Shown piece by piece: positions 4,244-29,989 of a stretch of 64,000 nt of DNA (the first letter of the stretch is position 1; each line of letters starts with the position of its first letter). The stretch comes from Bacteroidota bacterium (GTDB lineage Bacteria > Bacteroidota > Bacteroidia > Flavobacteriales_D > Crocinitomicaceae). A program made the position numbers and the translations under genes. The stretch spans positions 1 to 64,000 of the forward strand of contig SBGX01000013.1 in the NCBI GenBank assembly GCA_006226425.1, given 5' to 3'. The notes under the pieces were generated by a model that ran no database searches, was not told where the DNA came from, and saw nothing but the letters and a program-made list of their open reading frames with translations.

Positions 4244-4939
4244 ATGGCCCTGACAATATACACTTTCCCCTTTGCCGGAGGGAGCAAATATTCATACAAC
4301 CTCTACAGACGGTATCTTCCGGCAGACATTCACTTTGAACCATTGGAGCTACCTGGTCGCGGTGAACGCATTACCGATGACCTCGTTCCCAACCTGGAAC
4401 AAATGGCCGAGGAGTTATACCAGGAAATCAAAGGGAACTTACCTGATCGTTTCATTTTTTACGGGCATTCCATGGGAACCCTCCTCGCCTATCTAATCAC
4501 CAAAAAATTGCAGGAAGCAAATGAAAAATTACCATTTCATCTCATCCTAACAGGTGCTGCAGGTCCATCCAACGAAGAGCGAGAAAGAGATCGTCATCAA
4601 CTCCCTAAAGCAGCATTCAAGGCCAAGTTGGAAGAGTATGGAGGAAGTCCAAGTGAGGTACTGGAAAACACTGAGTTATTTGACTTTTTCGAGCCCATTT
4701 TGCGCAACGATTTCAAAGCGGTCGAAACTTATTCTTATAAAGAAATCCTGGAGAAATTGCCCATTCCAATTACAACTATTTATGGGATGAGTGAGCAACT
4801 GACCCGGGAAGAAGTTCAGCTCTGGGAACGGGAAACGAGTGAATCCTTTGAGGTAAGACAATTGCCTGGGGGGCATTTCTTCATTTTTGATTATCCGGCT
4901 GAAGTCGTCAAAACAATTTTGAATAAGGTTTACGCATAA
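4244..4939 (+). CDS. Type II thioesterase (editing / release), alpha/beta hydrolase
   Basis: This 231-aa stand-alone thioesterase resembles SrfD/GrsT proteins that hydrolyse wrong or stalled acyl groups from carrier domains. The family start TFPFAGG and the nucleophile elbow GHSMG (Ser76) are visible, and the histidine lies in GGHFF near the end. At the position where the family usually has the catalytic Asp (GxxD) this protein reads GMSEQ, so a Glu seems to occupy the acid position. The start at nt 4244 is preferred: an upstream in-frame ATG at 4106 would add 46 residues lying within the transporter gene and without family likeness. The gene is 25 bases after the ABC gene and 7 bases before the giant NRPS. 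Since no synthetase here has a cis thioesterase, this protein may also take part in product release (inference). Confidence 0.93.
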   Translation: MALTIYTFPFAGGSKYSYNLYRRYLPADIHFEPLELPGRGERITDDLVPNLEQMAEELYQEIKGNLPDRFIFYGHSMGTLLAYLITKKLQEANEKLPFHLILTGAAGPSNEERERDRHQLPKAAFKAKLEEYGGSPSEVLENTELFDFFEPILRNDFKAVETYSYKEILEKLPIPITTIYGMSEQLTREEVQLWERETSESFEVRQLPGGHFFIFDYPAEVVKTILNKVYA

Positions 4940-16300: not shown

Positions 16301-19300
16301 TCAGGAGACACTGGCTCGATTCCCAAATGCTCCAGCGATCCGCTATCAAACAAATCAACTCAGCTACCAGGAACTTGATTTATACAGCAATGCAGTCGCC
16401 TTAGAACTAACAAAATACGGCAAAGAATATCAGCGAATTGGTATTTATCTGAATCAAAATCACCTGATTGCTCCTGCTATCCTGGGAATATTAAAGGCAG
16501 GACTCAGCTACGTTCCTTTAGATCCTGAAGCACCAAGGGATCGCATCCAATTCATGCTGGAAGATGCTGGGATCAATGTGTTAATCAGTGAAACAAGTCA
16601 TCCACTTCCAAAGGAGATCAAAGACGTTCAGGAGTTGTTTATCGATGAGATCAAGAGCTGTGAGCAAACGATCAAGACCCACATAGAACCAAAGCAAGAA
16701 GCCTATTTGCTCTATACTTCAGGAAGTACCGGTGAGCCGAAAGGAGTCGTTCAAACACATCAAAACCTACTCTATTTCATCCGACATTATATTGAATTCT
16801 GTCAAATTGATGAACACGATCGTCTGAGTGGTTTTACGAATCTCACCTACGATTCCTTTCACAAGGATTTCTTTGGGGCGCTTCTTTCGGGCGCACAATA
16901 TTTCCCGATTTCACTCCGAAAAGAACTCCCTCCTTCACAAATAAGTGATTGGATTGCAGCTCACCAGATCAGTATCGTTCACCTCACACCAAGTGTCTTC
17001 AGGATTTGGGCAGCGGCCAATGAGGGAAAACCGCTGGCTTCATCCTTGCGAATAATTAAAACGACCGGCGAAGCCACTAGCCGAAACGATTTTGAGGAGT
17101 TTAAAGCGATGACTTCCGACCATTGCCAATTCATCTGTTCCTATGGAAGTACCGAACACAGCCTGGTTGCCATTCAAGCTTATGATCATTCTTCAATTAT
17201 CTCGCATCATCTGGTGAGTCCTGGAAAACCGCTTTACGAAGTCGAAGTTCATGTGCTTGATTCGCATCAAAAAATACTGGGAGACCTTCAATTCGGGGAA
17301 ATTTATATTGAGAGTCCCTATCTAAGTCCTGGGTATCATCACCGAGAACAAGAGAATGACCGGCATTTCATTCAAATAGAAGGCAAAAAGTTGTTCCGAA
17401 GTGGAGATTTAGGGAGGATCAATGCATTTGGAGAACTTGAGATTACAGGACGACAAGACGGTCAGCTAAAAATCAATGGGATTCGCTTCCATGTTTCGGA
17501 ATTGGAGAATAAAGTCGTACAACTTCCCGGAATCGATTCCTGCGTTGTAGTAGCCGACAAAAACCATGAAATTCAGCTTGCACTCTATTATACCGGGAAG
17601 ACAACTCTGGACCCCAAAGAAATAAGGGAATATCTACGATCTTTTTTCCCGGAAAACCTGCTACCAAGCTTCTATATTCAGCTCGATGAACTCCCCCAAA
17701 ATCTACATGGAAAAACGGATCGTTCCAAGCTCCCCAAACCGGAGAATCAACATCGAATCGAGCAAGAAAATTATGTCGCCCCGGAAAACGAAACCGAAGA
17801 GATCATTTGTACACTTTGGGAAGAAATTCTGCAAATATCCCCTATTGGAGTCAAACACTCCTTACTGGACCTCGGAGTGAACTCTCTCCGTGCCATGAAA
17901 TTCGTAGCTCGTCTGGAAAGTCAGCATCAATTGAGCTTGCCGTTAAGTGCTTTGTTCCGCTTCCCAACGATTCGGGAATTGGCCAATGAGGTTCAACAAA
18001 AGGTGAGCAAGGAAATTAAAGTTTACGCCCCGCAGGCATCCTACCCTGTAACAGAAGCTCAACAGCGAATTCACGTACTTCAGGAACTGGAGCCATCAAG
18101 TTGTCATTACAACCTTCCCATGTCCTTTGTTTTGAACGGACAATTGCGACTTTCCGATCTAAAAAAAGCAGTCGCAAAGTTGGTCGAGAAACACGCGGTA
18201 TTCCGAACGAATTTTGAGCGTCTGGATGGAGAACTCAGACAGCATGTTTCTGAAAATAGTGCGATTGAGATTGAATACCTGGAAGACAATGAAAAGGACC
18301 TGTTCCTCTGCAAACAGGAGTTTGTTCGACCATTTGATCTAAAACAAGGTCACTTATTACGAATCAGGGTTCATCGCCTGAATGAGGAACGCCATTTGCT
18401 CCTCATCGATACACACCACATTATATGTGATGGAATTTCCATGCAATTACTTATTCGGGATTTATTGCTGTTTTATCAAGGAAAATCTTCACCTACCACT
18501 CCCATCCAATTTACGGACTACGCCCTTTGGCTTCAGGAAGAGGAGTCTCAATTCAGGATCAAGCAGCAGGAAGCCTACTGGCTCAAACAACTGGACGGTG
18601 AGCTTGAAAATCTTCAATTGCCCTATGACCGGGAGCGTCCGGAACTGCAATCTTTTGAAGGAAAACGACTGGAACGTGAACTCAGCCAAAAACAATATGC
18701 TGCCATTCAGTCATTCGCACAAAAGCAGCAAATGACTCCATTTATGGTACTCCTCTCCTGCTTTAAACTCGTCCTGCACAAATATTCCGGGAATCAGGAC
18801 CTTCGCGTCGGTACACCAATTGCAGGCAGAAACCAGGATGAAAGCAGTGAATTAATAGGCATGTTTGTGAATACACTCATCATCCGAAGTCAAATGGACC
18901 CATCAGTATCTTTTGATCAATTCTGTCAGGAATTGAGAAAGAACTGTGTGGAAGCTTTTGAGCATCCCCTGGTTCCCTATGAAAAACTGCTTGATGAACT
19001 AAAGGTCCAACGGGATTTGTCCAGAAACCCGCTCTTTGATGTCATGTTTGTTTTGCAGAGCCTATCTGACCAGCAAGCAGAATCAATGGATCACGGACTG
19101 AAAATCGAAGGCATTGAAGAAAATTTCGATACCAGCAAGTTTGACCTCAGTCTTCTGGTATTTGAACAAGAGCAGGGGTACCGTTATCAACTGGAGTATG
19201 CCACCGCCCTTTTCGACGAGATCACGATGATTCGTTTTTGCGATTGTTTCGATGAAGTACTGGATCAGCTGGAATATCTTGAATCGAGCGCCATTCATGC

Positions 19301-22300
19301 TATTTCAATCCTTCCTACGGAACAAAAAGAAATGCTTCTGAGTTTGGGAAAAGGTCCCGAAATCTCTTACCCTGAGTTGGATCCAGTTTCGCTTTTTCAG
19401 AAATGCGTTACAGAATACCCGGATAAAATTGCTGTGCAAAGCAACGATACTTCATTGACTTACCAGGAGCTTCATACAAGAAGTAATGGACTGGCAAACA
19501 TACTTCTTGAGCGACAGGTTGATCGTTGCGCCATTCTGATGCCCAAAACGCCAGATTTACTGGTTTCTATGGTGGCCAGTCTAAAAGCAGGTGCTTGCTT
19601 TGTTTTGATCGATCCGGAGCTTCCTCATGAACGAATCAGTTTCCAATTGAAGGACGCTGAAGTGGATTTACTACTTTCAGACCACGATCCAAAGATTTCA
19701 AGCTGTCCGCTCTATCAATTAAATCCGGCAACATATTCCAATCTTGACGAATTGACCGTTTCGGATAAAGATAATGACGCCTACATCCTTTATACTTCGG
19801 GCTCTACTGGCCAACCAAAGGGAGTTCGAATTAGCAGAGAATCACTGGGTGAAAAGATTCAGAGTGTTACTTCCTGGTATCGGTGGACAGAGCAAGTGAA
19901 TAGCATTGGGACAACCAGTATTTCCTTCGACGTGTTTATCCTGGAAGTCTTCTCGGCTATTCTGAATGGAGGAAGTATTTACTTGCCGGACAATGAAGAT
20001 CGGATGGACTTTCCGCTACTGCTCAAGAATATCAGAAACTTCAATGTTCAGGTGTTACAGGGAACGAACAGCTATTTTAAGCAACTCCTGTGGAATACAA
20101 CAATGAGTGATTGTCTGGAAAGCCCGCTCGAACACCTGATTATTGGTGGTGAAAGCCTGGAAGGAGGAGTCCTAAAACAACTTAAAGAGCGCTTCCCGGG
20201 TGCTGCCGTACATAATCACTATGGGCCAACGGAAACAACGATTGACGCCATCGTCTATTCTAATCTGCAGGATTTCGGAGAAAATATCATTGGGAAACCG
20301 CTTCCTAATGTGGAAGTACTCATTCTGGATGAAGCCGGTGAGTTAGTTCCCAGAGGAAGTCAGGGGGAAATCTGTCTGGCAGGAATATCATTGAGTCCGG
20401 GCTACCTGAACCGTGATGAGGAAAACAAACGGGCCTTTCCTCAACACCCCTTCCAGAGCAGTAAACGAATTTATCGGACCGGGGATCTTGGATCATGGAA
20501 TAACCAGGGATTGATTCGCTTCCTGGGAAGAAAAGACGAACAGGTCAAAATCAGAGGATATCGCGTTGAACTAAATGAAATCAGGCAGCAAATACTGACC
20601 GAAAGTGACTTCCAGGATTTAGTGGTAATCAACCAACAAGGAAGCTCGGGAGATCAGGAACTACATGCCTATTTGCTTGGTCCATCGACTCCTGACCTAA
20701 CTTCGCTGCTCTCAGCGCTTAGAAAAAAGTTACCCAAGTACATGATCCCCGGCAAATGGTTTTTAGTAGACCAAATTCCGTTGAATCGAAATGGGAAGGT
20801 GGATCGCCATCAACTGATCGAACAAGGGGTAGCCATTGATAACGTAAATTCAAATGACGAAAAAGAAGTTCTGAGTGAAATCGAAGATAAAATCAGGAAA
20901 GTATGGATGGAAGTACTCGAACTTCAGAACATTTCACGAACGGACCATTTCTTTGATATCGGCGGGCACTCCTTAAAAGCGACACAAATCGTTTCCAGAC
21001 TCAGAGAACTATTCAAAAAGGAAATAAGTCTCCGGGACTTCTTTCTGAATCCAGATATCCAAAGTTTGGCAGCCATTGTCGAAAACCAGGAACAAGAAAG
21101 TTTTCAGTCAATCCCACGAATTCCTGAGGCAGAAAACTATCCCCTTTCCTATCCGCAGAAAAGACTTTGGATGATCAATGAGCTCATGGAGGAAAACAGG
21201 CATGTGTACAATATGTACCACGCAGTCACGCTAAGTGGAAAACTCAATTCAGAAGCCTTGCAAAAAGCGTTTCAACGTTTGATGGAACGTCACGAATCCT
21301 TGCGGACTTATTTCAAAGCTCCTGATGGAGAACCCAGGCAGTATATTGCTTCCGAAGTTGATTTCCCGATGGAAGAACGGGATTTCAGTGCCGAAGCAAA
21401 TCCGGAAGACACAATCCGGGAAGCCTGCCTAGAAATGGCCAATGAAGCATTTGATCTGGAACAGGCTCCATTATTGAAAGGTTTGTTAGCCAAAAAGAGT
21501 GACCAAGAACACATCCTTTTCCTATCTATGCATCACATCGTTTCAGATGGTTGGTCGATGGAACTAATGTTCCGGGAAATGAGTCAGTTCTATGCCTGGG
21601 AAAGTCGTGGACTTTCACTTGATCTAAACCCACTCAAGATTCAGTACCGAGACTTTAGCGCCTACCAGCAAAATCAAACCCTGGAACGAGATGAAGCATA
21701 TTGGCTCAAACAATTGGAAGGAGACCTGGAATTGATCAAACTCCCCTATGATTTCATGAAGAACAAGGGAATGCAATCCGTGGGAGATCAGGTTGAAATA
21801 CAAATTGATGAACAACTGACAAATGCGCTCAAATTAGTTGCCAAAACTTATCAGACAAGTCTTTCTAATGTGGTATTTACCGTTTTCAACATCCTTCTGC
21901 ATCAACTGAGCGGTCAAAAAGACCTGATCGTAGGAATGACAATTGCCAATAGGAATCACCCGGATATAGAAAAGTTAATCGGTTTCTTCGTTAATTCCCT
22001 GGTGATCCGAACTGTCTTGGACGAAGATAGCGCCTTTGCCGATATCCTGGAACAGGTCAAACAGAGTACCCTGGATGCCTTTGAACATCAGAATTATCCG
22101 TATGATTTACTGGTTGAAAAACTCCAACCGGAACGTTTCTCAGATCGACAAGCACTGGTCAATGTTACCTATTCGTTCCAGAACTTAAGCGACCTTTCAC
22201 TGGAAGAAAAAATGCCAAACAATTCTGAGGTGAACAGTGATATCGAGTTGCGAAATTTCAGTCTTGGACAGAGCAATCAAACTACCAAATACGATCTTTT

Positions 22301-22451
22301 ACTATTTGTAAACGAGTCAAATAACGAACTTAATTTAAAGTTTGAGTTTGACAGTGTGCTCTTCAAAAGAGCTTCTATGGAACGCTATCTCAAATTCTTC
22401 CACAAGTTCCTCGAGATGATTTCAGAACCGAGTTTAATCAAAGAAGATTAG
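4947..22451 (+). CDS. Giant NRPS, 5 modules plus terminal C domain (5834 aa)
   Basis: Domain order read from core motifs: half-C (residues 1-230), A1 (250-725), PCP1 (Ser769), C2 (HH949), A2, PCP2 (Ser1794), E2 (HH1966), C3 (HH2439), A3, PCP3 (Ser3278), C4 (HH3463), A4, PCP4 (Ser4313), C5 (HH4490), A5, PCP5 (Ser5342), C6 (HH5529), stop. All five A domains keep the TSGS/TTGxPKG loop and the A10 Lys. Only module 2 has an epimerase, and C3 is of the DCL type (SPMQEGLLF) as expected after it. The protein starts with a C domain lacking its N-lobe and active site, so it probably initiates the chain. It ends after a C domain, and the partner A domain is in the next gene 14 bases on. Details are in the module entries. 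The locus seems natural: ORFs on the opposite strand are short shadows. Confidence 0.97.
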   Translation: MDISRYHHKSYQPHFEHWKSIRAAFPEPFLLEFPVALDTKQKTATICLDEQLSSKISGLVNHSEPGVLVIFTSALQALLSSYTGKTEIQLQLPGESGEGDWQEAPFAQSIDGNTSIRELLTQTRQNYQHFLRFIQLPLKLVEGEKLGSQSNVHLSYDALHPVPSEIQAGFLFRIIRRGNCFEIRIKSKNVSISAEQLNALLRHYSKVLEQIIQVELKISELNLLDKNEIAELVQLGTENFPPVSEIDLLTVIQQKVAESPDQIAIQSTQGSLSYAELWTLTRKYAFILRENYGIQEGNKVAILLNRCPEAIAAMLASLYLGAAYVPIDPDYPDERIRFLLEDSQASILISKSPKDYLIPVFDPSSIGEVELPKLALSPVKSSQLAYIIYTSGTTGLPKGCQISRGNLSHYIHWARAYYLNQEAVHFGLFTSLSFDLTVTSIYTTLCNGGCIHLFDESTDLSKVLREACSPGSPIDCLKITPAHLSLLPYLDLEQIHLKKIILGGEALSLDIVKKLQELAPGIEVYNEYGPTETTVGCCVSRIEQGAKLVTIGKPASGYEIYLTDKSSKLVPFGCIGEICIAGKGLGMGYYQRPELNQERFVEHPLIAGQKMYRSGDLGCWDEDGNLHCLGRIDEQLKINGYRIEPQEIEQQILSLNEVQQVLVTPVDSESQERYLASFHIGGNSKEIREALQEKLPAYMIPKEIRAIDSIPFTTHGKVDRNALLRLLKESRPKDSQLPLTGKMEKIWAQVLGKADIRRSDHFFERGGDSLQALKLISLIYREYGLDIQIELLFDYPILEQFENQLLQLNETEINLIPNVSEASHYPLSAEQSRMFALQQLNPESTAYNMPSVLELKGKLDPQQINVVINQLLERHESLRSNVQLIDGNAVQLIRPYVPIELEMIQESEQEISQLMERFCQPFDLAQDLLFRVRVVERTKENHLLLIDMHHIVGDGLSMEILTEEFTKLYAGATLNDLTIQYKDYASWQQDFLKSEQAEKSKDYWLQKLAGEHSGMDLPYDYARPASNDFSGARVECQIDAKTHQQVREFVRKKGATPFMFYLGIYQLLLAKYTGSSEITVGSPVAGRPHPDLESLVGIFINTLVYRQNIDSQKNFQDYFDSVMSGCREAINHQHYPFDQLIKQLDLPRQTDRNPVFDVLFVHQSFRKKEEVWKDLEVNFVSSEYIQAKFDLNLSLSESEEDAFVSLVYRTQLFKEASMKRFLDHYKQLITAVLEAPEQVLEKLSPVSEEELSQLERFNATEQNIPVQSVLNDFLKQVAECPESTALVFGEKEFSYAVLDQISTELSAFLRRQQNLQEEDFIGIKLPSSEWLIISILAIWKASCAYVPIDPEYPEERVRFIQDDSQCRLLIDKEFIDSFQQQQSKAPAEIILPKAEQLAYVIYTSGSTGKPKGVQIEHRQLNNYNYWFKEHYNIDSKDSSLLLSNIAFDGVNTSIFGCLTTGACLHIVSKEQVRDVEKLSTYLQLHQISFLKITPPLLHLVMEDGPSRSRFFENRALRLILIGGEQINEGDVRIIQKGRPEVQLINHYGPTETTIGVLCYELKNWDSKSIIPIGQAISNTEILILDEEQQEVGIGIPGEIYIGGKSLARSYLRREGLTTERFIVHPFKANERLYKSGDIGRWTEDGQILFLGRRDDQVKVRGYRVELGEIRSHLLELKQVRDAWVNLDEKKELLALVSLKEAMEVSEFRQALSTVLPEHMLPHHTIFVEEIPLNAHGKLDRNKLQKIIHEQEHAEQEENPELSPNEQLLMEIWKELLGKTQIGVKQDFFSLGGDSIKAIQLQARLRNKGKRLEIREIFQQGSIRKLAPFLREDTRNFSQESIFGPIRLSPIQQNFLENSEVPEHFNMAVLLEKGSIEPIFLKRAWGKLIEHHDLLRMAYREGESWIQDLTQFKWEIQSFELPAHEEEAFILKQSQELQESFSFDGSPLFRIAHFQGIQHDFLLILCHHLIIDGISWRILLEDFSSLYTQIDKAQKAVLPLKTSSFKDWTETLPELAKEMDWEAEIPYWEQILDKPTSLVESQIGELSEQDSFEQIHFDLDLELSESLLGKCNERYGTEINDLLMTALAKSLARQSNKRTNTICLEGHGREEIAPNLDLSRTIGWFTSTYPLRLNYDENWSIEQLILESRKSLREVPNKGIGFSILKYYSSKSDRTVFDRIHELPIKFNYLGQTGQELKNDDWLFSGMEVGQSIHEKNREKHRIDITGISLPGGLHLNFHFHKGNYSREWVNSLGKEFVKVLSEIASHCLRNPNESIVPLLLHGSPVPAIEKTALTRKFANEQIELLYPLSPMQEGLLFQSILNEQSPEYWEQSIFTLQGPLEPVLLRKAYEMLIARHDILRTRFIYQGLDTPMQVLFKTMSPEIREQDISHLAEDKQSELIQDYLHQEASQQRKFETDALMQLTIFRLGAQKHRIVWSNHHILLDGWCKSILIREFIENYLELEKSSTPKKASVNPYRNYISWLLERNQLAASYYWKNYLANYEQVVKIPFENTQKEGKEASAYYFSCGQEQTKALKKLASEQQTTLNTLIQTIWGVLLQFYNNTQDVVFGQVVSGRPAEIEGIEEMVGLFINTIPIRINTTSQQTFQQLVQQVQQQSIESTAYDYYPLQKIVQEHPMGSDLIRQLYVYENVPTDEQEAPFSAEEIQLTDFEAREETNYDLCLYVVPSEELGFKLAYKTACFEHKHIEQLVAHFKHLIEKVLEQASVSLTELSPLSKKEETAIIKQLTGPQKEYHLDHTVIELFREQVIKTPNKEAIQYGKDVLTYRELEELSNRMAGRLIEFGLNREDIIALHLERSLKLIPVIMACWKSGLAYVPIDPAYPLERKEFMLRDAQAKILLGENIHYLSAQFEGVSLSPEELISDHPIPTLRSGPQHLAYVIYTSGSTGQPKGVAIEHGALSSFLQWAGNEFATDDFDTVLAATSYSFDLSLFEFFHPLTTGKKVQLLDSPLSLADAIQQDGSFLLNTVPSVMQELLEQRISLRSIKAINLAGEPISLKIKEILLKQRKLLRNLYGPSEDTTYSTIHSVCEIDGRQLIGLPIDNSFALLLNDHGQVLSPGCIGELHLGGEQLARHYLHREELSQERFIENPRNPEQRIYKTGDLAMLNDQGILEFMGRKDDQIKLRGLRIELSEIQTVLERLREIEQCIVVLHQDESEQQLVAYYRSEEEQDAAKLKQFLADQLPESYLPAFFIHLSGFPLTPNGKVDKKRLPSPTRTSGNSFEAPRGVIETRLAEIWKKVLKVERVGRNNHFFELGGHSLKLLSLLGYIEQEFTTGIPLKELFGHPVLHQQAALTQKYGGNKHRIPRLPEAKHYPLSPAQNRLWLLDQVQGSSEMYHISSWYHLEETLDYELLKQSIHLLSMRQESLRTSFRMKEGTPVQYIEEELAIDLPLEELEKNESLEHRMLKLEEQYVHPAFDLSQGPLWRICLLREHDRSFYLLIVMHHIISDGWSMNVARDELTQIYQHLKSGKTVELPALEIQYRDYAGWQTEQHQSENFREHQSYWIQQLGPNPEEFRFPTDFSDTTSMEGSSYHFSIDGELQQQLEGFIRQHELSLFMLLLGCFQLSLARMSGKSEVLVGSPVAGRKQPEVKDLIGFFLNTVIFKANINREESLEKFFSQLQQSVLNAMEHQDYPFEALIDDLELQRTPGEFPFTSVFFNLLNQNEEKRQINFSDSIQQHDRALKFDLNLYASEQENGIAFQLEFRRHRFREESIRFLTETFRNILKIVVSTPEVTIGELPAFYLEGKKEKEETRKETAPNLVSAFQETLARFPNAPAIRYQTNQLSYQELDLYSNAVALELTKYGKEYQRIGIYLNQNHLIAPAILGILKAGLSYVPLDPEAPRDRIQFMLEDAGINVLISETSHPLPKEIKDVQELFIDEIKSCEQTIKTHIEPKQEAYLLYTSGSTGEPKGVVQTHQNLLYFIRHYIEFCQIDEHDRLSGFTNLTYDSFHKDFFGALLSGAQYFPISLRKELPPSQISDWIAAHQISIVHLTPSVFRIWAAANEGKPLASSLRIIKTTGEATSRNDFEEFKAMTSDHCQFICSYGSTEHSLVAIQAYDHSSIISHHLVSPGKPLYEVEVHVLDSHQKILGDLQFGEIYIESPYLSPGYHHREQENDRHFIQIEGKKLFRSGDLGRINAFGELEITGRQDGQLKINGIRFHVSELENKVVQLPGIDSCVVVADKNHEIQLALYYTGKTTLDPKEIREYLRSFFPENLLPSFYIQLDELPQNLHGKTDRSKLPKPENQHRIEQENYVAPENETEEIICTLWEEILQISPIGVKHSLLDLGVNSLRAMKFVARLESQHQLSLPLSALFRFPTIRELANEVQQKVSKEIKVYAPQASYPVTEAQQRIHVLQELEPSSCHYNLPMSFVLNGQLRLSDLKKAVAKLVEKHAVFRTNFERLDGELRQHVSENSAIEIEYLEDNEKDLFLCKQEFVRPFDLKQGHLLRIRVHRLNEERHLLLIDTHHIICDGISMQLLIRDLLLFYQGKSSPTTPIQFTDYALWLQEEESQFRIKQQEAYWLKQLDGELENLQLPYDRERPELQSFEGKRLERELSQKQYAAIQSFAQKQQMTPFMVLLSCFKLVLHKYSGNQDLRVGTPIAGRNQDESSELIGMFVNTLIIRSQMDPSVSFDQFCQELRKNCVEAFEHPLVPYEKLLDELKVQRDLSRNPLFDVMFVLQSLSDQQAESMDHGLKIEGIEENFDTSKFDLSLLVFEQEQGYRYQLEYATALFDEITMIRFCDCFDEVLDQLEYLESSAIHAISILPTEQKEMLLSLGKGPEISYPELDPVSLFQKCVTEYPDKIAVQSNDTSLTYQELHTRSNGLANILLERQVDRCAILMPKTPDLLVSMVASLKAGACFVLIDPELPHERISFQLKDAEVDLLLSDHDPKISSCPLYQLNPATYSNLDELTVSDKDNDAYILYTSGSTGQPKGVRISRESLGEKIQSVTSWYRWTEQVNSIGTTSISFDVFILEVFSAILNGGSIYLPDNEDRMDFPLLLKNIRNFNVQVLQGTNSYFKQLLWNTTMSDCLESPLEHLIIGGESLEGGVLKQLKERFPGAAVHNHYGPTETTIDAIVYSNLQDFGENIIGKPLPNVEVLILDEAGELVPRGSQGEICLAGISLSPGYLNRDEENKRAFPQHPFQSSKRIYRTGDLGSWNNQGLIRFLGRKDEQVKIRGYRVELNEIRQQILTESDFQDLVVINQQGSSGDQELHAYLLGPSTPDLTSLLSALRKKLPKYMIPGKWFLVDQIPLNRNGKVDRHQLIEQGVAIDNVNSNDEKEVLSEIEDKIRKVWMEVLELQNISRTDHFFDIGGHSLKATQIVSRLRELFKKEISLRDFFLNPDIQSLAAIVENQEQESFQSIPRIPEAENYPLSYPQKRLWMINELMEENRHVYNMYHAVTLSGKLNSEALQKAFQRLMERHESLRTYFKAPDGEPRQYIASEVDFPMEERDFSAEANPEDTIREACLEMANEAFDLEQAPLLKGLLAKKSDQEHILFLSMHHIVSDGWSMELMFREMSQFYAWESRGLSLDLNPLKIQYRDFSAYQQNQTLERDEAYWLKQLEGDLELIKLPYDFMKNKGMQSVGDQVEIQIDEQLTNALKLVAKTYQTSLSNVVFTVFNILLHQLSGQKDLIVGMTIANRNHPDIEKLIGFFVNSLVIRTVLDEDSAFADILEQVKQSTLDAFEHQNYPYDLLVEKLQPERFSDRQALVNVTYSFQNLSDLSLEEKMPNNSEVNSDIELRNFSLGQSNQTTKYDLLLFVNESNNELNLKFEFDSVLFKRASMERYLKFFHKFLEMISEPSLIKED
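7410..11790 (+). other. NRPS module 2: C - A (Asp-like) - PCP - E
   Basis: C2 begins YPLSAEQSRMF and has MHHIVGDG (HH at nt 7791-7796), an LCL-type domain consistent with an L-Asn donor. The A2 specificity residues read D-G-T-K-L-G-H-I-G-K. K278, H322, I330 and G331 match the Asp code DLTKVGHIGK, while Gly replaces Leu at 236, so Asp is likely but not exact. PCP2 is LGGDS (Ser1794). The last domain is an epimerase: HHLIIDGISWRIL, GHGREE, RTIGWFT and FNYLGQ. Together these predict a D-Asp (or close relative) at position 2. Confidence 0.8.
11850..14890 (+). other. NRPS module 3: DCL-type C - A (Ala) - PCP
   Basis: C3 starts YPLSPMQEGLLFQS and has NHHILLDGWC, both typical of DCL condensation domains that accept a D-configured donor. 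This fits the epimerase just upstream. The A3 specificity residues read D-L-F-N-N-A-L-T-Y-K, which as I recall the published tables is a standard Ala code. The flanking NLYGPSEDTTYST is also characteristic of that group. PCP3 has LGGHS (Ser3278, nt 14778-14780), consistent with a non-epimerized carrier. Confidence 0.82.
14925..18000 (+). other. NRPS module 4: LCL-type C - A (unknown) - PCP
   Basis: C4 has YPLSPAQNRLWLL and MHHIISDGWSM, an LCL-type domain. A4 keeps TSGSTGEPKG, FRSGDLG and HGKTDRSKL, so it should be active. Its A4 core reads YDSFHKDFF in place of the usual FDxSVWE, and its A5 core is SYGSTEHS rather than xYGPTET. The specificity residues read D-S-K-H-K-T-S-L-V-K, which I cannot match to any code I know. 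Two lysines and a histidine in the pocket might favour an acidic substrate (speculative). PCP4 has the variant LGVNS with Ser4313 (nt 17883-17885). Confidence 0.75.
18030..21090 (+). other. NRPS module 5: LCL-type C - A (unassigned) - PCP
   Basis: C5 has THHIICDGIS (HH4490) and is LCL-like. A5 has the canonical cores YTSGSTGQPKG, HYGPTETT, YRTGDLG and NGKVDRHQL. The specificity residues read D-V-L-Q-I-G-H-I-D-K. I do not recognise this code; the I-D ending is shared with some Orn, Arg and Glu codes, but Leu239 and Gln278 are not. PCP5 has IGGHS (Ser5342, nt 20970-20972). Confidence 0.75.
21125..22451 (+). other. Terminal C domain (C6) of the giant NRPS
   Basis: This complete LCL-type condensation domain (YPLSYPQKRLWMI, MHHIVSDGWSM with HH5529 at nt 21531) is followed by only a few residues before the stop. 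Its cognate A domain opens the next gene. The break falls at the start of the C-A linker, and that linker is found at the N-terminus of the next protein. It should join the module 5 peptide to the (methyl)Thr loaded on PCP6, in trans. Confidence 0.88.
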
Positions 22452-22465
22452 AAACAAAAAGCCTC

Positions 22466-25160
22466 ATGAAACTAAAAGATTTCAATTTACTGGACGACGA
22501 AAACGATCAGAACGAGTTGTTACAACTATTGGATCAATTCAACAATACGTCAGCGCAATTTCCCTCCAAAAGCATTGTTACTCTTTGGCAAGAGCAGGTA
22601 CAGCAAAACCCCGATCGAACAGCCCTGGTATTTCGGGAAAAAGGATACAGCTACGGAGAAATTGAACAGCATTCCAACCGACTGGCAAATCTGCTCATCA
22701 AAGAAGGAATTGAAAGGAATGAATTGATTGCACTTTTGTTTGAACCCTCTGTGGAAATGATCACTTCCATACTCGGAGTCATTAAGGCTGGAGCGGCTTA
22801 TCTCCCCCTCGATCCAAAAAATCCCAGCGAGCGATTACTCTTTGCACTAAACGACAGTGAGGCACGCATTCTGATCGGGCAAAAGCGTTTCACCAAACAG
22901 ATGAATCGTTTGCAATGGGAAGCGTATACAGTCAAAGGAATCATCTGCACCGATAGTCAGAACTTCCTCCAGGAATCTGAAAGTCAAAATGAGTTGATGA
23001 AGACGGAGCTTTGGGATTATATCAGTGAAAAATCACACGATGACATCTCTGGTGGAGGCTGGTTCTCCAGTTATACGGGAGAAGATATTCCACGAGCTGA
23101 AATGGACGAATATGCGTCCAACATCCAACAAAAGCTTCATCCTTACTTGAAAAAGGATAGCCGGGTACTTGAGATTGGTTGTTCTTTCGGAATTAGCCTC
23201 TTTCAATTCGCTGATCAGGTTAATTTTTATATGGGAACTGATCTTTCCGGTGTAGCCATCGACCATTGCAGGAAGTTAGTATCTCAAAAAGGGCTCGATA
23301 ACGTACAATTACAAAATTTAGCGGCTCATGAAATAGATCAGTTACAAGAAGGTAATTACGATGTAATTATCATGAACAGCGTCATTCAGCTTTTTCACGG
23401 ACACAACTATTTCCGGGATGTCCTCCGAAAGTGTCTAAGCTTAATGAGTGATCAGGGAGTCCTTTTCCTGGGAGATTTACAAGATTTAGACAAGAAAGCA
23501 GAGTTAATCCAATCCCTTAAAGACTTTGAACTAGAAAACATTGGGAAAGGCTACCAAACCAAGACGGACTGGTCGCACGAACTTTTCCTATCCAGGGATT
23601 TTATTGAAGATCTGCTCCTTGAATTCCCTGAAATTTCTACCTGTTCACATTCAGAAAAGATCCATACGCTCAAGAACGAACTCACTGAGTTTCGCTTCGA
23701 TAGCTTGCTCAAAATTGACAAGAATGCATCGAAAAAAGAGAACCATACAGCGCACAAATGGCAGCGTGACCTTCGGCATATTCAAGAAAGCACTGATCAG
23801 GCTCCAGATGTCCGGATAGAAGCTGATGATTTGCTCTATGTCATTTACACTTCAGGCTCCACAGGACTCCCAAAGGGTTGTTTGATCAGCCATCAAAATG
23901 TCGTTCGACTGCTTTTCAATGATCGACTCGATTTTGACTTTAGCGAGAAAGACACCTGGATCATGGCTCACTCCTACTTTTTCGACTTTTCGGTATGGGA
24001 AATGTATGGAGCCCTCCTGTATGGGGGAAAACTTGTACTTCCGACAAGAGAGGAAGTCCGGGATCTTGGGCGCTTGTTAGAGCTCGTTCGAAAGCATCGG
24101 GTGAGCGTTTTAAATCAAACCCCACTCTCCTTCCAGGCCTTCATTACCCACGAACTGGAGCAAACGGACAGGGCACTTGCAGAACATCTCAGATACGTGA
24201 TTTTCGGTGGAGATAAACTGGAACCAGAAAAATTACTTTCGTGGAAAGATAAATACCCGCTCGATGAAATTGCCCTCATCAACATGTATGGAATTACAGA
24301 AACCACAGTTCATGTCACCTACCATGCATTGAGTGAAACTGATTTTGAATCGCGTGGAATGAGTCCGATCGGAAGACCGCTCCCAGAAACAAAAATATAC
24401 GTCCTCAACGAGCAACAACAAGTGCAACCTATCGGAATTCCCGGGGAAATGTACATTGGTGGAAGTGGTGTCTGCAAGGGCTACCTGAATCGACCTGAGC
24501 TCAATCAGGAACGCTTTATAGTGAGTCCATTTGATCCCAGTGAACGACTATATAGAACTGGTGATTTGGCTCGATGGAATGAAAACGGAACCCTGGATTA
24601 CCTCGGACGGATCGATTTCCAGGTGAAGATCAGAGGCTATCGGATTGAATTGGGAGAAGTGCAAAATCGATTAAACGAACACCCTTCTGTACAGGAATGC
24701 GTAGTCATTGCCAAAGAAAAACAGGAGAGCAAGCAATTGGTCGCTTACTATGTTTCAGAAACAGCGCTGGAAACAGAAGAATTGCGGCTCTTTATGTCGC
24801 TCAAGCTTCCTGAGTACATGATTCCGGCCTTTTTCATGAAGATTGATGAAATTCCACTTACCAGCAACGGAAAACTGAATAAAAAAGCGCTTCCTGATCC
24901 ATGGTCCAGTTTGTTTGGAGAAGAACAACATTTTGTGGAAGCAAGCAATGAATCCGAAGCCATTTTGGTGGAGCTCTGGTCTCAAATCCTCGGAATGGAC
25001 CGAGTGAGCACCGAAGCTAATTTCTTCCATTTGGGAGGTGATTCCCTGAAAGCAATCCGACTGGTAGTTGAAATCAATAAACGATTCCAATCTGCTATCA
25101 AGGTAGCTGATGTCTTCAAATATCAACACCTGAAAGAACAGGCCAAACTCCTCCATGATT
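22466..25160 (+). other. NRPS module 6: A (Thr) interrupted by methyltransferase - PCP
   Basis: The A domain has its A1-A2 region (VIKAGAAYLPLDP), then about 270 foreign residues, and then the A3 loop (YTSGSTGLPKG) near nt 23845. The insert is a class I SAM methyltransferase with motif I VLEIGCSFG at residues 234-242, a central NYDVIIMNSV strand, and the NELTEFRFD ending seen in NRPS methyltransferases. The specificity residues read D-F-W-N-I-G-M-V-H-K, an exact match to the known Thr code. Methyltransferases inserted between A2 and A3, such as TioN, have been linked to side-chain methylation, so O-methyl-Thr is a reasonable guess; N-methylation is not excluded. PCP6 is LGGDS (Ser860, nt 25043-25045). 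Confidence 0.87.
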
Positions 25161-28100
25161 CTGAGGCCGGAGACAATCGGGAGTATCTTCAGGGAAAGCA
25201 TCGAATAGCGGAAATTAAACGCTACATTGAAGAGAACAATTCCCTGGATCTTCCTGAAAGCTATGAGGATATCTACCCCCTGAGCTCCATTGAGAAGGGC
25301 ATGATCTTTTCTTCGCAACTCCGACCGGAAGAAGCCGTGTATTACGACCAGTTCACTTATCATTTGCATATCAATAGTGAAGAGGTTTTCAGACAGGCAT
25401 TTCGATTGATGGTACAAAAGCATGAGAATATGCGAGCAGCATTCTACATGAGTACTTTTCTGGAACCCGTCAAAGTCATTCTATCGGAAACTTCCTTACC
25501 CATTTCTTTTGAAGATCTAAGCAAGTTATCTCCTGCAGATCAACAGAAAAAAATCAATCGGTACCTAGAAAAAGATGCCTCTGAGCGCTACCGTTTTGAG
25601 GGAGATCTCCTCTGGAAAGTAAAGGCCTTTCGCCTGAAAGCGGAGCATACCTATGTGGTATGGAGCGTACACCACTCTATCCTGGACGGATGGAGCGAAA
25701 GTTCTTTTGTCACAGAATTCGCGAACCTCTGTGCTCGACAAGATCTGTTAGAGATTCGGGAAATCCCCAAACTCAAATCTTCCTATCAGGACTATACAGC
25801 ACTCCAATTGGGCAGACAAGCCTCAGGAGAGGCCGAAGCGTATTGGAAAAGCCTCCTCGCTGATTATGAAAGAAACAAGCTTCCATACAATCTCAGTGGG
25901 ACCAGAATCAGTGAAGAGCTGGGAATGAAACGCATCGGACGGGGATTGTCTGACACACTTTCCAGCAAGGCAAATGAGCTGGTTGATCAAATGCTGATCA
26001 GTCATAAAGCCTTACATCTTTCGGTCTATGCCTTCATTATGCACATTCTCAGTGGAGAGCAACGAGTTGTCGCTGGTTGCGTTTCCAACGATCGACCGGA
26101 AATAGAAGACGGGGATCAAATCCTGGGATGTTTTCTAAATACACTCCCCTTTTCCGTTGATTTCAGACAGATATCAAGTGTCCGTGATCTGATTCTACAG
26201 ATGAACACATATCTCAGTGAAGCCAAACAACATGAGCTTTATTTGTTGGATGTCGCACGAAGCATTGGAGAGAAATCTTCCAGTGGTAATCCTTTGTTTG
26301 ACTGCATCTTTAATTTCACTGATTTTCATATTCTGGAAGACATTGAAGAACAAAATGAACAACTTTCCAGAGCATCCCTGAGCCAAATGGACTGGGAACT
26401 CCGTCAAAATAACCTGATGACCAATACCCTCTTCGATGTGGAACTTGATCGAACCGGAGGGAGATTAAATCTCGGGATTAAATATGCAAAAGCTTATTTC
26501 ACTGAAAAACAGATTCAGAATGCGATCCGGCTCTATGAACTCATTCTCGATCAGTTTTGTGAGCATCTTGACCTTCAACTGCTTCAATTAGAGCTTCAGA
26601 GTCCGGCCGAGAAGCATTTTTTCGAAAATGAATTCAATGCTACAGAAAGGGAAACATCCAAAGAAGCATTAATTCACTCAGCCTTTGAAGAACAGGCTCG
26701 TAGATTTCCAGAAAGAATCGCCCTCATTCAAAATGGACACGAATTAAATTATGGAGAGCTGGATGAACGGGCAAATCACTTAGCACTGCAACTCAAAGAA
26801 TATGGGGTTGAAAGTGGACAAAAAGTAGCGATTCAGGCCCCCAGAAATTTTGATTTGATCATCGCTTTGATAGCTATTTTGAAGGCTGGAGCTTCTTATG
26901 TCCCTATTGATCCTGCTTATCCCGCAGAGCGCAAAAAGTATATCCTTGAAAATTCAGCGGCACAAACCCTAATCAATCTTTGTCCTGAAAAACTAAATCT
27001 CGGTGATGACCAGTGCCTTGAAATCATGCTTCAAGACAAGGACCTGATCCATCAGAGTAAGGAGAAACCAGCCATTCAGGTAGGAACGGAAGAACTTGCT
27101 TACACGATTTACACCTCGGGATCTACTGGAAGACCGAAAGGAGTGATGATCTCTCACGAAGCTGCTGTTAACCTATTCCGCTGGGTCAACGAATGCTTTG
27201 AGGTTAATTCAGATGACCGACTTCTATTCATCACTTCCGTTTGTTTCGACCTTTCCGTTTACGATATTTTTGGGATCTTGAGCTCAGGGGCCGCGTTGGT
27301 GATTGCCACGGAAGACCAGATTAGGGAGCCTAAAACCCTGATCCGACTCATGCAAGATGAAAAGATTAGCTTCTGGGATGCCGTTCCAAGTACGATGAAC
27401 TACCTCGTCGATATGATTGAAATTTTAGAGCCCAATTTCATTCAGGAAGAACTTCGACTTGTATTCATGAGTGGAGACTGGATTCCGGTTCAGCTTCCGG
27501 AAAAAATCAATCGTTTTTTCCCGAATGCTGAAAACATCAGCCTGGGAGGAGCTACTGAAGGGACTATTTGGTCCAATTATTACAAAATCCCAAAGGATCA
27601 TGGACATCAAATTAGTATCCCCTACGGAAAACCTATCGACAACAATCGCTTCTACGTCCTGAACGAAGGACAAAAAATTGTTCCATTGGGTGTTCCTGGA
27701 GAACTTTACATTGGAGGACTTGGGGTAGCCATGGGCTATGCCAATGATCCTGAAAAAACGGCTGCCGCCTTTTTCAAAGATCCTTTTAGTGAAAAAGCAG
27801 GGGCCCGAATGTATAAAACAGGTGATCTCGGGCGAATTCGAGAGGACGGACAAATGGAATTCCTCGGGAGAAAAGACTCACAGGTCAAAATTCGAGGATA
27901 CCGTGTCGAATTGGGTGAGGTAGAGAATCAAATTCAGGAGTTACAGGAGGTCAATCGTGCAGTGGTTATCGCTAGAGAAACGGAAAAACGCAATAAAGAA
28001 CTGATTGCTTATATCGTTTGGGAGAAAGAAGCATCCAATCTGGATGAATTTAGAGGAAGACTGCGAAAAAAGCTCCCTGACTATATGATTCCGGCGCATT

Positions 28101-29989
28101 TTGTGACACTCCAGCAACTCCCACTTACATCCAACGGAAAAGTCGATCGAAAATCCTTGCCGGAGGTAGGAATCGACCGTACTAATGAAAGCCACGAAGC
28201 ACCACACGCAGGGCTGGAGGAGAAACTGTCTGAACTTTGGAAAAGTATCCTGAATATAGATTCCATTGGCAGAAATGATTCCGTATTCGATTTAGGGGCA
28301 CACTCCTTACATGCAGGTGCCTTTGTTTCACGACTTTACAAGCAGGAAGAACTTCGAATTTCGCTCCGGGATCTTTTTGCGCATCCGAGCATTCAAATGC
28401 TGGCGACTTTTTTACAGGAATCAGAGCAACAAGAGGCTTTTCCAGAATTGATGAAACTGAAAAAACAGGGCTTCTACCCCATTCCGAAAGAACAACAGAG
28501 TCTTTGGTTGACTGACCAACAGAAGCAAGGTAAAAATCAGGACTTAAATTTCCTGATCAATTTCAAAATCACTGGAAAAATGGACCTTCCAAGATTCCAA
28601 CAAGCATTCAACGAAGTCATCCAACGACACGAAATTCTTCGAACAACTTTTCATGCGAAAGATCAGGCGGTGATTCAGCAAATTCATTCTGAGTGGAAAA
28701 TCAGTATTTCACCAGAACAAGCCGAAGATCCGGAACAATGGCTCCTGGGACACTATAAACACTCTTTTCAGCTGGGTCAACTACCACTATTCAAGATTCG
28801 TTTGTTGCAAATTTCAGAAGAAGAGCACCTGCTTAGTTTCCTGGTCCATAACATCATCTTTGATGGTTGGTCGATGAACGTCATGATGCGCGAAATCCTG
28901 CATTACTATGAGGACGAACACCAGGCACTTCCCCCGCTGAAGTATCAATTTTCGGACATTAGTGACTGGCTGAACCGTCAGGCAGAACATCTGAGCGAGC
29001 AGGCTGCCAATCACTGGAAAAAAGAATTGAGTCATCCTCTTCCCGTCTTACGGATGCCTTCTCTGGAAGAACGTCCCGAACAACTGAGAGAAGAAGCCAA
29101 TAAAGTCTTTCAGAAGATTCCCTCCGATCTGATTCAGCGACTTAAAAACTATTGTCAGGAGCAGCAATGTACTCCATACGCCTTCCTTCACGCTATTAAC
29201 GCTATACTGTTCCGGGAATTGAGCGGGCAAGATGACTTAATCTTCGGAAGCATTGCTTCTTACCGGAGACTACATGAAATGGAAGAACAAATCGGCTACT
29301 ATTACAATAAAATACCGGTGCGTCATCAACCAAAGGAAGAGTTCACATTTGCAGCGTATCTGCAGGAAGTCAAGCGAAGGTTAAATGCGAATTTGGAATA
29401 CGACCTCTATCCTTTCTCAAACATTCTGGAAGACATTAACTACCAGAAAAACGTGAATCATGGCGCCCTTTTTGACGTGGTACTGAATATGCAGAACACC
29501 AGTTATACGGAAGCAAACGAAGAAGAAATAGAGCAATCGGGCTTGCACCTGCAATTCCTTCCGAATGATCAAAACCTGGCCAGTTTTGACTACCTCATGC
29601 ATTTCTACCTTTCGGATGATCTTTTGATCACGCTGAAATACCGCAAACAGGTCGTTCATCAATTGTTGGCAGAAAACATACTGAGGCAAATTGAACATCT
29701 GATGAATCTCTTTTTGGACCAGCCACAACTCCTTTTGAGCAAGGTAAAACTAGCACCATCACATGAATGTACTTCCACCGAATTTGGAACAAAAGCCAAA
29801 ACTCTCGCAAGCTGGCTCACTGGAAAAATGGAAAAAGAAATTCACCCGGGAGTCACCTTTTTGGAACAGGGATTTGGTTACAAAGAAGTGCAGCAGATCA
29901 GTCAACTAATTGAGGAAGAACACCAGGTTAAACTGAAAACGGATCAGGTACTTTTACTGAATTGCGAAAAAATATGTAAAATAATTTAG
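22466..29989 (+). CDS. NRPS, A[MT]-PCP / C-A-PCP / C-carrier-like (2507 aa)
   Basis: Order of domains: C-A linker (residues 1-40), A6 N-part (to about 150), inserted SAM methyltransferase (about 175-445), A6 remainder (455-810), PCP6 (Ser860), C7 (HH1069), A7, PCP7 (Ser1947), C8 (HN at 2128-2129), and a carrier-like C-terminus without Ser (Tyr2472). The protein continues the chain from the upstream synthetase, whose last C domain has no A domain of its own. It has no thioesterase, reductase or other recognisable release domain. The gene starts 14 bases after the preceding stop with no clear Shine-Dalgarno, as is usual in this phylum. It is the last gene of the + strand biosynthetic run; a separate promoter serves the next small gene. 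Confidence 0.96.
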   Translation: MKLKDFNLLDDENDQNELLQLLDQFNNTSAQFPSKSIVTLWQEQVQQNPDRTALVFREKGYSYGEIEQHSNRLANLLIKEGIERNELIALLFEPSVEMITSILGVIKAGAAYLPLDPKNPSERLLFALNDSEARILIGQKRFTKQMNRLQWEAYTVKGIICTDSQNFLQESESQNELMKTELWDYISEKSHDDISGGGWFSSYTGEDIPRAEMDEYASNIQQKLHPYLKKDSRVLEIGCSFGISLFQFADQVNFYMGTDLSGVAIDHCRKLVSQKGLDNVQLQNLAAHEIDQLQEGNYDVIIMNSVIQLFHGHNYFRDVLRKCLSLMSDQGVLFLGDLQDLDKKAELIQSLKDFELENIGKGYQTKTDWSHELFLSRDFIEDLLLEFPEISTCSHSEKIHTLKNELTEFRFDSLLKIDKNASKKENHTAHKWQRDLRHIQESTDQAPDVRIEADDLLYVIYTSGSTGLPKGCLISHQNVVRLLFNDRLDFDFSEKDTWIMAHSYFFDFSVWEMYGALLYGGKLVLPTREEVRDLGRLLELVRKHRVSVLNQTPLSFQAFITHELEQTDRALAEHLRYVIFGGDKLEPEKLLSWKDKYPLDEIALINMYGITETTVHVTYHALSETDFESRGMSPIGRPLPETKIYVLNEQQQVQPIGIPGEMYIGGSGVCKGYLNRPELNQERFIVSPFDPSERLYRTGDLARWNENGTLDYLGRIDFQVKIRGYRIELGEVQNRLNEHPSVQECVVIAKEKQESKQLVAYYVSETALETEELRLFMSLKLPEYMIPAFFMKIDEIPLTSNGKLNKKALPDPWSSLFGEEQHFVEASNESEAILVELWSQILGMDRVSTEANFFHLGGDSLKAIRLVVEINKRFQSAIKVADVFKYQHLKEQAKLLHDSEAGDNREYLQGKHRIAEIKRYIEENNSLDLPESYEDIYPLSSIEKGMIFSSQLRPEEAVYYDQFTYHLHINSEEVFRQAFRLMVQKHENMRAAFYMSTFLEPVKVILSETSLPISFEDLSKLSPADQQKKINRYLEKDASERYRFEGDLLWKVKAFRLKAEHTYVVWSVHHSILDGWSESSFVTEFANLCARQDLLEIREIPKLKSSYQDYTALQLGRQASGEAEAYWKSLLADYERNKLPYNLSGTRISEELGMKRIGRGLSDTLSSKANELVDQMLISHKALHLSVYAFIMHILSGEQRVVAGCVSNDRPEIEDGDQILGCFLNTLPFSVDFRQISSVRDLILQMNTYLSEAKQHELYLLDVARSIGEKSSSGNPLFDCIFNFTDFHILEDIEEQNEQLSRASLSQMDWELRQNNLMTNTLFDVELDRTGGRLNLGIKYAKAYFTEKQIQNAIRLYELILDQFCEHLDLQLLQLELQSPAEKHFFENEFNATERETSKEALIHSAFEEQARRFPERIALIQNGHELNYGELDERANHLALQLKEYGVESGQKVAIQAPRNFDLIIALIAILKAGASYVPIDPAYPAERKKYILENSAAQTLINLCPEKLNLGDDQCLEIMLQDKDLIHQSKEKPAIQVGTEELAYTIYTSGSTGRPKGVMISHEAAVNLFRWVNECFEVNSDDRLLFITSVCFDLSVYDIFGILSSGAALVIATEDQIREPKTLIRLMQDEKISFWDAVPSTMNYLVDMIEILEPNFIQEELRLVFMSGDWIPVQLPEKINRFFPNAENISLGGATEGTIWSNYYKIPKDHGHQISIPYGKPIDNNRFYVLNEGQKIVPLGVPGELYIGGLGVAMGYANDPEKTAAAFFKDPFSEKAGARMYKTGDLGRIREDGQMEFLGRKDSQVKIRGYRVELGEVENQIQELQEVNRAVVIARETEKRNKELIAYIVWEKEASNLDEFRGRLRKKLPDYMIPAHFVTLQQLPLTSNGKVDRKSLPEVGIDRTNESHEAPHAGLEEKLSELWKSILNIDSIGRNDSVFDLGAHSLHAGAFVSRLYKQEELRISLRDLFAHPSIQMLATFLQESEQQEAFPELMKLKKQGFYPIPKEQQSLWLTDQQKQGKNQDLNFLINFKITGKMDLPRFQQAFNEVIQRHEILRTTFHAKDQAVIQQIHSEWKISISPEQAEDPEQWLLGHYKHSFQLGQLPLFKIRLLQISEEEHLLSFLVHNIIFDGWSMNVMMREILHYYEDEHQALPPLKYQFSDISDWLNRQAEHLSEQAANHWKKELSHPLPVLRMPSLEERPEQLREEANKVFQKIPSDLIQRLKNYCQEQQCTPYAFLHAINAILFRELSGQDDLIFGSIASYRRLHEMEEQIGYYYNKIPVRHQPKEEFTFAAYLQEVKRRLNANLEYDLYPFSNILEDINYQKNVNHGALFDVVLNMQNTSYTEANEEEIEQSGLHLQFLPNDQNLASFDYLMHFYLSDDLLITLKYRKQVVHQLLAENILRQIEHLMNLFLDQPQLLLSKVKLAPSHECTSTEFGTKAKTLASWLTGKMEKEIHPGVTFLEQGFGYKEVQQISQLIEEEHQVKLKTDQVLLLNCEKICKII
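25255..28430 (+). other. NRPS module 7: DCL-like C - A (Cys-like) - PCP
   Basis: C7 opens YPLSSIEKGMIFSS and has VWSVHHSILDGWS, features closer to DCL than LCL condensation domains, although no epimerase precedes it. A7 has YTSGSTGRPKG, YKTGDLG and NGKVDRKSL. Its pocket residues read D-L-Y-D-F-S-L-I-W-K, two changes from the Cys code DLYNLSLIWK, and the flanking MSGDWIP and GGATEGTIWS are typical of Cys-activating domains. The C domain has HHxxxDG, not the cyclization motif, so no thiazoline is expected here. PCP7 has LGAHS (Ser1947). Confidence 0.75.
28470..29989 (+). other. Terminal C domain with HN motif plus Ser-less carrier-like domain
   Basis: C8 is full length, with an N-lobe (PIPKEQQSLWL) and C-lobe, but its active-site motif reads VHNIIFDGW. 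The second His, normally the catalytic one, is Asn2129 (nt 28850-28852). The last 60 residues align without gaps to carrier domains of the FLExGFDSL type, yet read FLEQGFGYKEVQ. The phosphopantetheine Ser position is therefore Tyr2472 (nt 29879-29881). Neither unit looks competent for standard condensation or thioester carriage. They may have a structural, docking or unusual release role, or be decayed remnants (inference). Confidence 0.8.

Follow-up and report, generated by a model that had tools for sequence, protein, structure and literature searches.

The window (the whole stretch of 64,000 nucleotides analysed here) contains an NRPS gene that encodes a protein of 2,507 residues, whose reading frame is open throughout and in which Pfam identified AMP-binding, carrier and condensation domains (Table 1). 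The upstream NRPS gene (4947–22451) encodes a C domain at its end, so the Thr module is split across two proteins. We take the code of the second A domain of the 2,507-residue protein to be that of Cys. At the other end of this protein (28463–29989), the condensation-type domain with HNIIFDG is followed by a short T-like tail that lacks the usual GG(H/D)S. We identified no thioesterase among the ORFs scanned downstream of the NRPS gene; a free-standing thioesterase is encoded at 4268–4939 of the window. The contig edge falls inside an NRPS module (window 1–1920), so the cluster probably extends onto another contig and the peptide order is incomplete.

Table 1. Features of the NRPS locus, with positions in the window.
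Feature	Position	Strand	Basis
C domain expected to serve the Thr module, C-terminus of the upstream NRPS; start approximate	21084..22451	+	HHIVSDG at residue 5529
NRPS gene, A(a1-a2)-MT-A(a3-a10)-T-C-A-T-C and short T-like tail	22466..29989	+	open frame, Pfam, motif positions
N-terminal part of Thr A domain, a1-a2; start approximate	22571..22900	+	motif positions, predicted fold
Embedded class I SAM methyltransferase (MT), predicted backbone N-methyltransferase	22901..23722	+	alignments, Pfam, model, nearest solved structure TioS AMA4
SAM-binding motif I, VLEIGCSFG	23165..23191	+	motif position
NSVIQLF motif in MT insert	23375..23395	+	alignment
Remaining Thr A domain, a3-a10, code DFWNIGMVHK; end approximate	23834..24910	+	motifs, code columns
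Carrier (T) domain of Thr module, LGGDSL	24965..25153	+	Pfam, motifs
Second A domain of the NRPS, Cys-like code DLYDFSLIWK	26684..27739	+	Pfam, motifs
Terminal condensation-type domain, HNIIFDG replacing HHxxxDG	28463..29767	+	Pfam, motifs

The interrupted threonine adenylation domain

The a2 motif (GVIKAGAAYLPLDP) is located at residue 104 of the NRPS, SAM motif I at residue 234 and the a3 motif (YTSGSTG) at residue 461. Alignment with a relative places an insert of ~274 residues between a2 and a3, at residues ~146–419. Class I methyltransferase families were matched by Pfam at residues ~229–353, the scan of the whole protein giving Methyltransf_31 (E=1.3e-12) and Methyltransf_12 (E=1.8e-12). 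The N-terminal stretch of the methyltransferase is family-specific (NRLQW...ELWD...GGGWFSSYTG), and its motif I, NSV and C-terminal NELT motifs agree with the family. At the specificity positions, the interrupted A domain carries DFWNIGMVHK, a Thr code. The columns were picked by motif on the NRPS of the window itself, a choice supported by the canonical codes that the same columns yield in many other domains. Motifs a1–a2 and a3–a10 flank the insert in one frame and the insert, a SAM methyltransferase, contains motif I, as in other A domains interrupted between a2 and a3; the insert precedes a3, so that this is not an a8–a9 insertion of the TioS or McyA type, and the host code is that of Thr rather than of Cys as in TioN. 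These observations confirm the original prediction of a methyltransferase inserted between a2 and a3 of a Thr-code A domain. The span proposed for it, 22990–23790, does hold the methyltransferase core, but the alignment shifts the insert slightly to the left. A genome from another genus of the same family as the window has the same code, insertion site and linkers, with 49% identity between the inserts, and the interrupted domain is therefore not a chance occurrence.

Structure prediction, the check proposed together with the original prediction, gave a confident AlphaFold2 model of the A-MT-A region (residues 1–836; pLDDT 87.2, pTM 0.85), in which the A-domain core is predicted to close round the insert. 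This core matched the Ser module of Txo1 (PDB 6ozv) with a Z score of 50.7 and an rmsd of 1.5 over 420 residues. Because the 50 Foldseek matches listed for the whole A-MT-A model were solely adenylation-domain or DltA-related chains, the methyltransferase was also folded alone (pLDDT 95.9, pTM 0.92). Its best solved match in Foldseek was TioS AMA4 (PDB 5wmm; E=1.1e-17, the next match at 3.7e-11), and VIA-align 2 aligned the two with a Z score of 23.9 and an rmsd of 3.9 over 250 residues (next Z 21.0). TioS AMA4 is also the top PDB match of the insert by sequence. Fold similarity by itself is no proof of the methyl acceptor.

The methyltransferase family and its hosts

We searched one genome per species (84,980 species) with a profile built from the insert and three relatives, in one scan through two short peptide patterns; as these patterns restrict what can be found, the family counts are lower bounds. 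Relatives were encoded in 76 of the 219 matched stretches, representing 75 loci. These loci contain 81 methyltransferase matches, 73 of which have an a3 motif 37–89 residues downstream, as expected for an a2–a3 insertion. Of the remaining eight, three are truncated by contig ends (L047, L079 and L099), two lie in decayed A domains (L041 and L044) and one, the second match of L045, is taken as a8–a9-like from its motifs and the absence of a downstream a3 region. In L046 and in the first match of L098, the a3 motif was missed by the pattern and the codes are readable.

By title, the loci belong to Bacteroidota, Acidobacteriota, Aminicenantes, Clostridia and Paenibacillus, Delongbacteria, Opitutaceae, Chlamydiales, Proteobacteria and Chlorobiaceae. 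Bacteroidota, with Balneolaceae counted in, account for at least 15 of the 75 loci (14 genomes), and Chlorobiaceae/Chlorobium for seven more. When the phylum of the window was sampled evenly, 10 of 395 genomes matched at a threshold of 1e-20. One is the genome of the window, another has an insert identical in sequence to the Flavobacterium tructae one (L013, L055), and eight, all of a single genus, have the Chlorobium type, with L015 and L079 found at an identical position of a contig bearing the same number. The interrupted domain is thus not rare in Bacteroidota, and the initial remark that such domains are rarely reported there does not stand up well. Searches closer to the window, each including its own genome, matched 2 of 399 genomes at order level (1e-40), 3 of 240 at family level (1e-20) and 2 of 199 relatives (1e-12); among close-relative genomes, only L010 and L013 inform the host range. 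Judged from sequence, the insert is a member of a large a2–a3 family spread over many phyla.

In L041 (967–9372) and L044 (8021–11749), the a2–a3 methyltransferase lies in a decayed-looking A domain, and a second A domain begins directly after it. Neither host has a normal a3 or a5 motif, and L041 also lacks a8 and a10 before the next A domain. The second A domain of L041 is complete, with the Ser-like code DVWHVSYVDK, and that of L044 runs off the end of the examined stretch. In both loci, the methyltransferase seems to have been kept after the death of its host A domain.

We built two trees of the family. The first used representatives for most of the TtcC/TtmB-type sequences and did without the fragments L015, L047, L079 and L099 and the duplicates L005, L009, L022 and L024; the second omitted L023 and three near-identical Flavobacterium rows, and in its a8–a9 row L120 the excised stretch had a poor start. 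The a2–a3 methyltransferases were split from 16 a8–a9 methyltransferases at 100/99, with the TtcC/TtmB-type proteins on the a2–a3 side. The insert groups with the TtcC/TtmB-type methyltransferases and those of Leu-, Val- and Ile-code hosts, apart from the a8–a9 methyltransferases. Its place within the family is poorly resolved: it was unresolved in the first tree and stood beside L029 at 95/90 in the second. The visible motifs of L029 are FDLTLTS and SIKLTPSH, and its host is presumably Asn/Asp-like. The methyltransferase of L059 branches outside the main a2–a3 group. In AU tests, for which we defined the groups with the first tree already known, a single clade of Thr-host methyltransferases was rejected (p-AU 0.003), whereas neither a grouping of the insert with L101 and the Cys-like-host L059 (p 0.165) nor one with the a8–a9 methyltransferases (p 0.085) was rejected.

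The host table sets the codes of 41 readable hosts against ten reference codes. Not included are the window's own domain, hosts of the TtcC/TtmB type, truncated rows, the partial L029 and the decayed L041 and L044; near-identical Flavobacterium rows remain in the table, and one genome contributes several domains. Leu, Val or Ile codes were matched at 9 or 10 of 10 positions by 11 of the 41 hosts, from nine genomes; the tenth position of L036 was not read. A further host, L058, is Val-like, with eight of nine read positions matching. The code DAWFLGNVVK is documented for Leu. DIWE[LI]TADDK codes were matched at 9 or 10 positions by 7 of 41 hosts, four of them the near-identical Flavobacterium rows. 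The host of L042 has a Tyr-like code, and that of L059, from a Chlamydiales MAG, is the one Cys-like host (7 of 10 positions). About half of the 41 hosts have no confident assignment, 21 of them matching at eight or fewer positions.

The only other exact Thr-code host that we found occurs in a single genome met twice (L010 and L033). Its methyltransferase is 66% identical to that of L027, which has a Leu-code host, and groups with it and with the two decayed-host methyltransferases in both trees (100/99 in the first and 100/98 in the second). The A domains of L033 and L027 share 32–44% identity up to a7, 63% in a7–a8 and 49% thereafter. The methyltransferase of the window is itself 51% identical to that of L027 and 49% to that of L033. 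As the clade of Thr-host methyltransferases was rejected and the L033 methyltransferase sides with that of L027, the methyltransferase does not track the side chain of the amino acid that its host activates.

The probable methyl acceptor on threonine

One functional guide is the thalassospiramide system. Frames of ~1,170 residues in Thalassospira and other genera resemble the terminal modules of this pathway. The Tistrella mobilis protein has the architecture A-MT-A-T-TE according to Pfam and lies on plasmid pTM1 directly after a 5,215-aa NRPS, the pair spanning the origin of the circular record. The family scan showed that Thalassospira, Oceanibaculum and Fodinicurvata also encode a TtcC/TtmB-type protein; in Thalassospira, 13 of 29 genomes match, one frame each, all of 1,042–1,205 residues. 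The thalassospiramide cluster has been reported from these three genera and Tistrella (PMC5577590). Based on the gene order on pTM1, the architecture and the list of genera, proteins of the T. mobilis type are very probably the thalassospiramide terminal modules. TtcC and TtmB are listed as a2–a3 interrupted domains with N-methylation (PMC11355689), and the final two modules are described as adding Val and N-methyltyrosine (PMC3705361); N-methylation by these proteins rests on the product structure and the review table. Domain content of the type was checked by motif in L014, L066 and L076 and by Pfam in the Tistrella protein. Going by code and size, such frames also occur beyond the four named genera, as in Chlorobium, Azospirillum, Pleomorphomonas and an Acidobacteriota MAG (TtcC/TtmB-type loci: L014, L016–L021, L064, L068, L069, L076–L079, L081–L090, L092, L096 and L097).

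The best guide is provided by the host codes. Relatives of the insert at 47–52% identity reside in Leu-, Val- or Ile-code hosts. These amino acids have no side-chain heteroatom and offer the enzyme no side-chain acceptor, so that the backbone nitrogen is the atom most likely to be methylated. The domain nearest to the insert among solved structures, TioS AMA4, likewise comes from a protein listed as N-methylating (PMC11355689). From sequence comparisons of this kind, we infer that the embedded methyltransferase is active and that it probably methylates the backbone N of Thr, giving N-methyl-Thr. In the proposed scheme, the bifunctional interrupted A domain would activate L-Thr as the adenylate and load it on its own T domain. 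The carrier would then present Thr to the embedded methyltransferase, which would transfer the methyl group from SAM to the alpha-amino nitrogen; in interrupted A domains, methylation is described as coming after loading (PMC11355689). The C domain ending the upstream protein would take N-methyl-Thr as acceptor and join it to the peptide, and the residue that follows would be Cys-like by the code of the second A domain. The methyltransferase would thus act as a backbone-directed cassette largely indifferent to the side chain, which would explain why its relatives are found in Leu-, Val-, Ile- and Tyr-code hosts.

Methylation of the hydroxyl group of carrier-bound Thr, with O-methyl-Thr as the product as in the original prediction, we consider unlikely. 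Thr does have a side-chain nucleophile, and TioN and MarQ, listed as a2–a3 domains with S-methylation, act on the side chain from the same site (PMC11355689). The code DFWNIGMVHK has been reported with N-methyl-Thr and with N,O-dimethyl-Thr (PMC12283262), which speaks for N-methylation, the latter residue also fitting O-methylation in part. N,O-dimethylthreonine is reported for FrsG (FR900359). Among literature matches listed for N-methyl-Thr and Bacteroidota, N-methylthreonine, in both spellings, was not mentioned.

A further argument for side-chain methylation comes from L101, a related a2–a3 methyltransferase on a DIWELTADDK host encoded by plasmid pSa001 (61526–70299) of strain MSr10575. 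Sandarazols of this strain are reported to be plasmid-encoded and to contain 2-amino-3-(N,N-dimethylamino)propionate (PMC8868522); we infer the identity of pSa001 as the sandarazol plasmid, and also the module responsible for the dimethylamino residue. The code DIWELTADDK may stand for diaminopropionate or diaminobutyrate, and the L101 methyltransferase may dimethylate the side-chain amine, so members of the family may methylate side-chain nitrogen. The AU test did not separate the insert from this methyltransferase statistically. Among 13 plasmid loci classified by motif, the methyltransferase stands after a8 in 11, after a7 in L126, where no a8 was matched, and before a3 in L101.

The sandarazol-plasmid methyltransferase, the two groupings that the AU tests did not reject (p 0.165 and 0.085) and the poorly resolved place of the insert in the family count against N-methylation, as does the replacement by Leu of the tyrosine found in the NSVVQYF motif of a8–a9 N-methyltransferases. 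At the sixth position of NSVIQLF, the insert has Leu, whereas TioS and three a8–a9-like rows have Tyr. The residue at this site was considered as a marker of N- versus O-methylation and dropped, as it showed no clear link to the host code; inspection by eye gave C, N, H, L, S, A, D, T or Y across the a2–a3 family.

Against O-methylation stand the Leu-, Val- and Ile-code hosts of the nearest relatives, where there is no side-chain target, a methyltransferase that does not track the Thr host, and the N-methyltyrosine of thalassospiramide. O-methyl-Thr was thus probably the wrong product. The original prediction had named clustering of the insert with C- or N-methyltransferases as the result that would speak against it, and the grouping with the TtcC/TtmB type and with methyltransferases of Leu-, Val- and Ile-code hosts largely amounts to this, although O-methylation keeps a low probability. 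The link drawn between the a2–a3 site and side-chain methylation holds for TioN and MarQ but not for TtcC and TtmB, which are listed as N-methylating (PMC11355689). A general rule equating a2–a3 with side-chain methylation was rejected on the review table and the host survey; in genome mining, the insertion site alone is no predictor of side-chain methylation. It is also doubtful, in our estimate, that the a2–a3 family combines backbone-N and side-chain methylators that switch acceptor with the host, the Thr member then producing O-methyl-Thr or N,O-dimethyl-Thr. If true, this would place an a2–a3 O-methylating domain in Bacteroidota.

An inactive or incidental methyltransferase, with plain Thr incorporated, is very improbable. 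The decayed hosts of L041 and L044 indicate that parts of such units can be lost; the insert, however, has an intact frame, motif I, NSV and NELT motifs that fit the family and a confident model, and in the L033/L027 pair the methyltransferase is better conserved than the surrounding A domain. Finally, C-methylation at the alpha or beta carbon would also fit hosts without side-chain heteroatoms, and the C-methyltransferase CurJ occurs among the lower Foldseek matches (ranks 8 and 13), but the nearest domain by sequence and fold is that of TioS, listed as N-methylating, and thalassospiramide contains N-methyltyrosine, leaving this possibility barely worth considering.

N-methylation of Thr translates into a concrete prediction for the product of this Bacteroidota cluster, N-methyl-Thr beside Cys. 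Since Leu, Val, Ile, Tyr-type and Thr codes all occur among its hosts, the a2–a3 methyltransferase family may be substrate-tolerant, and such enzymes could help to engineer N-methylated peptides.

Comparison with known systems

TtcC and TtmB share with the window the a2–a3 position of the methyltransferase and its family. In T. mobilis, as in the window, the A domain opens the protein and a C domain closes the preceding one; the T. mobilis protein differs in ending in T-TE, and the TtcC/TtmB hosts differ in their codes, DGVDVGAVSK and similar. The insert is 32–36% identical to the TtcC/TtmB type (five rows), with 34% to the Tistrella protein.

L101 resembles the insert in its a2–a3 site and at 37% identity, but has a DIWELTADDK host and a long branch outside the main a2–a3 group. 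TioS AMA4, the nearest solved structure, is listed as N-methylating with an insert at a8–a9 (PMC11355689); it thus differs from the window in site and in the tyrosine of its VVQYF motif, where the window has an a2–a3 insertion and Leu. TioN and MarQ, compared by review description only, share the a2–a3 insertion with the window and differ in S-methylation, TioN acting on Cys whereas the window host has a Thr code. KtzH, likewise compared by review description only, is similar in having a hydroxy amino acid host (Ser-activating) and differs in carrying its methyltransferase at a8–a9, where it is listed with O-methylation (PMC11355689).
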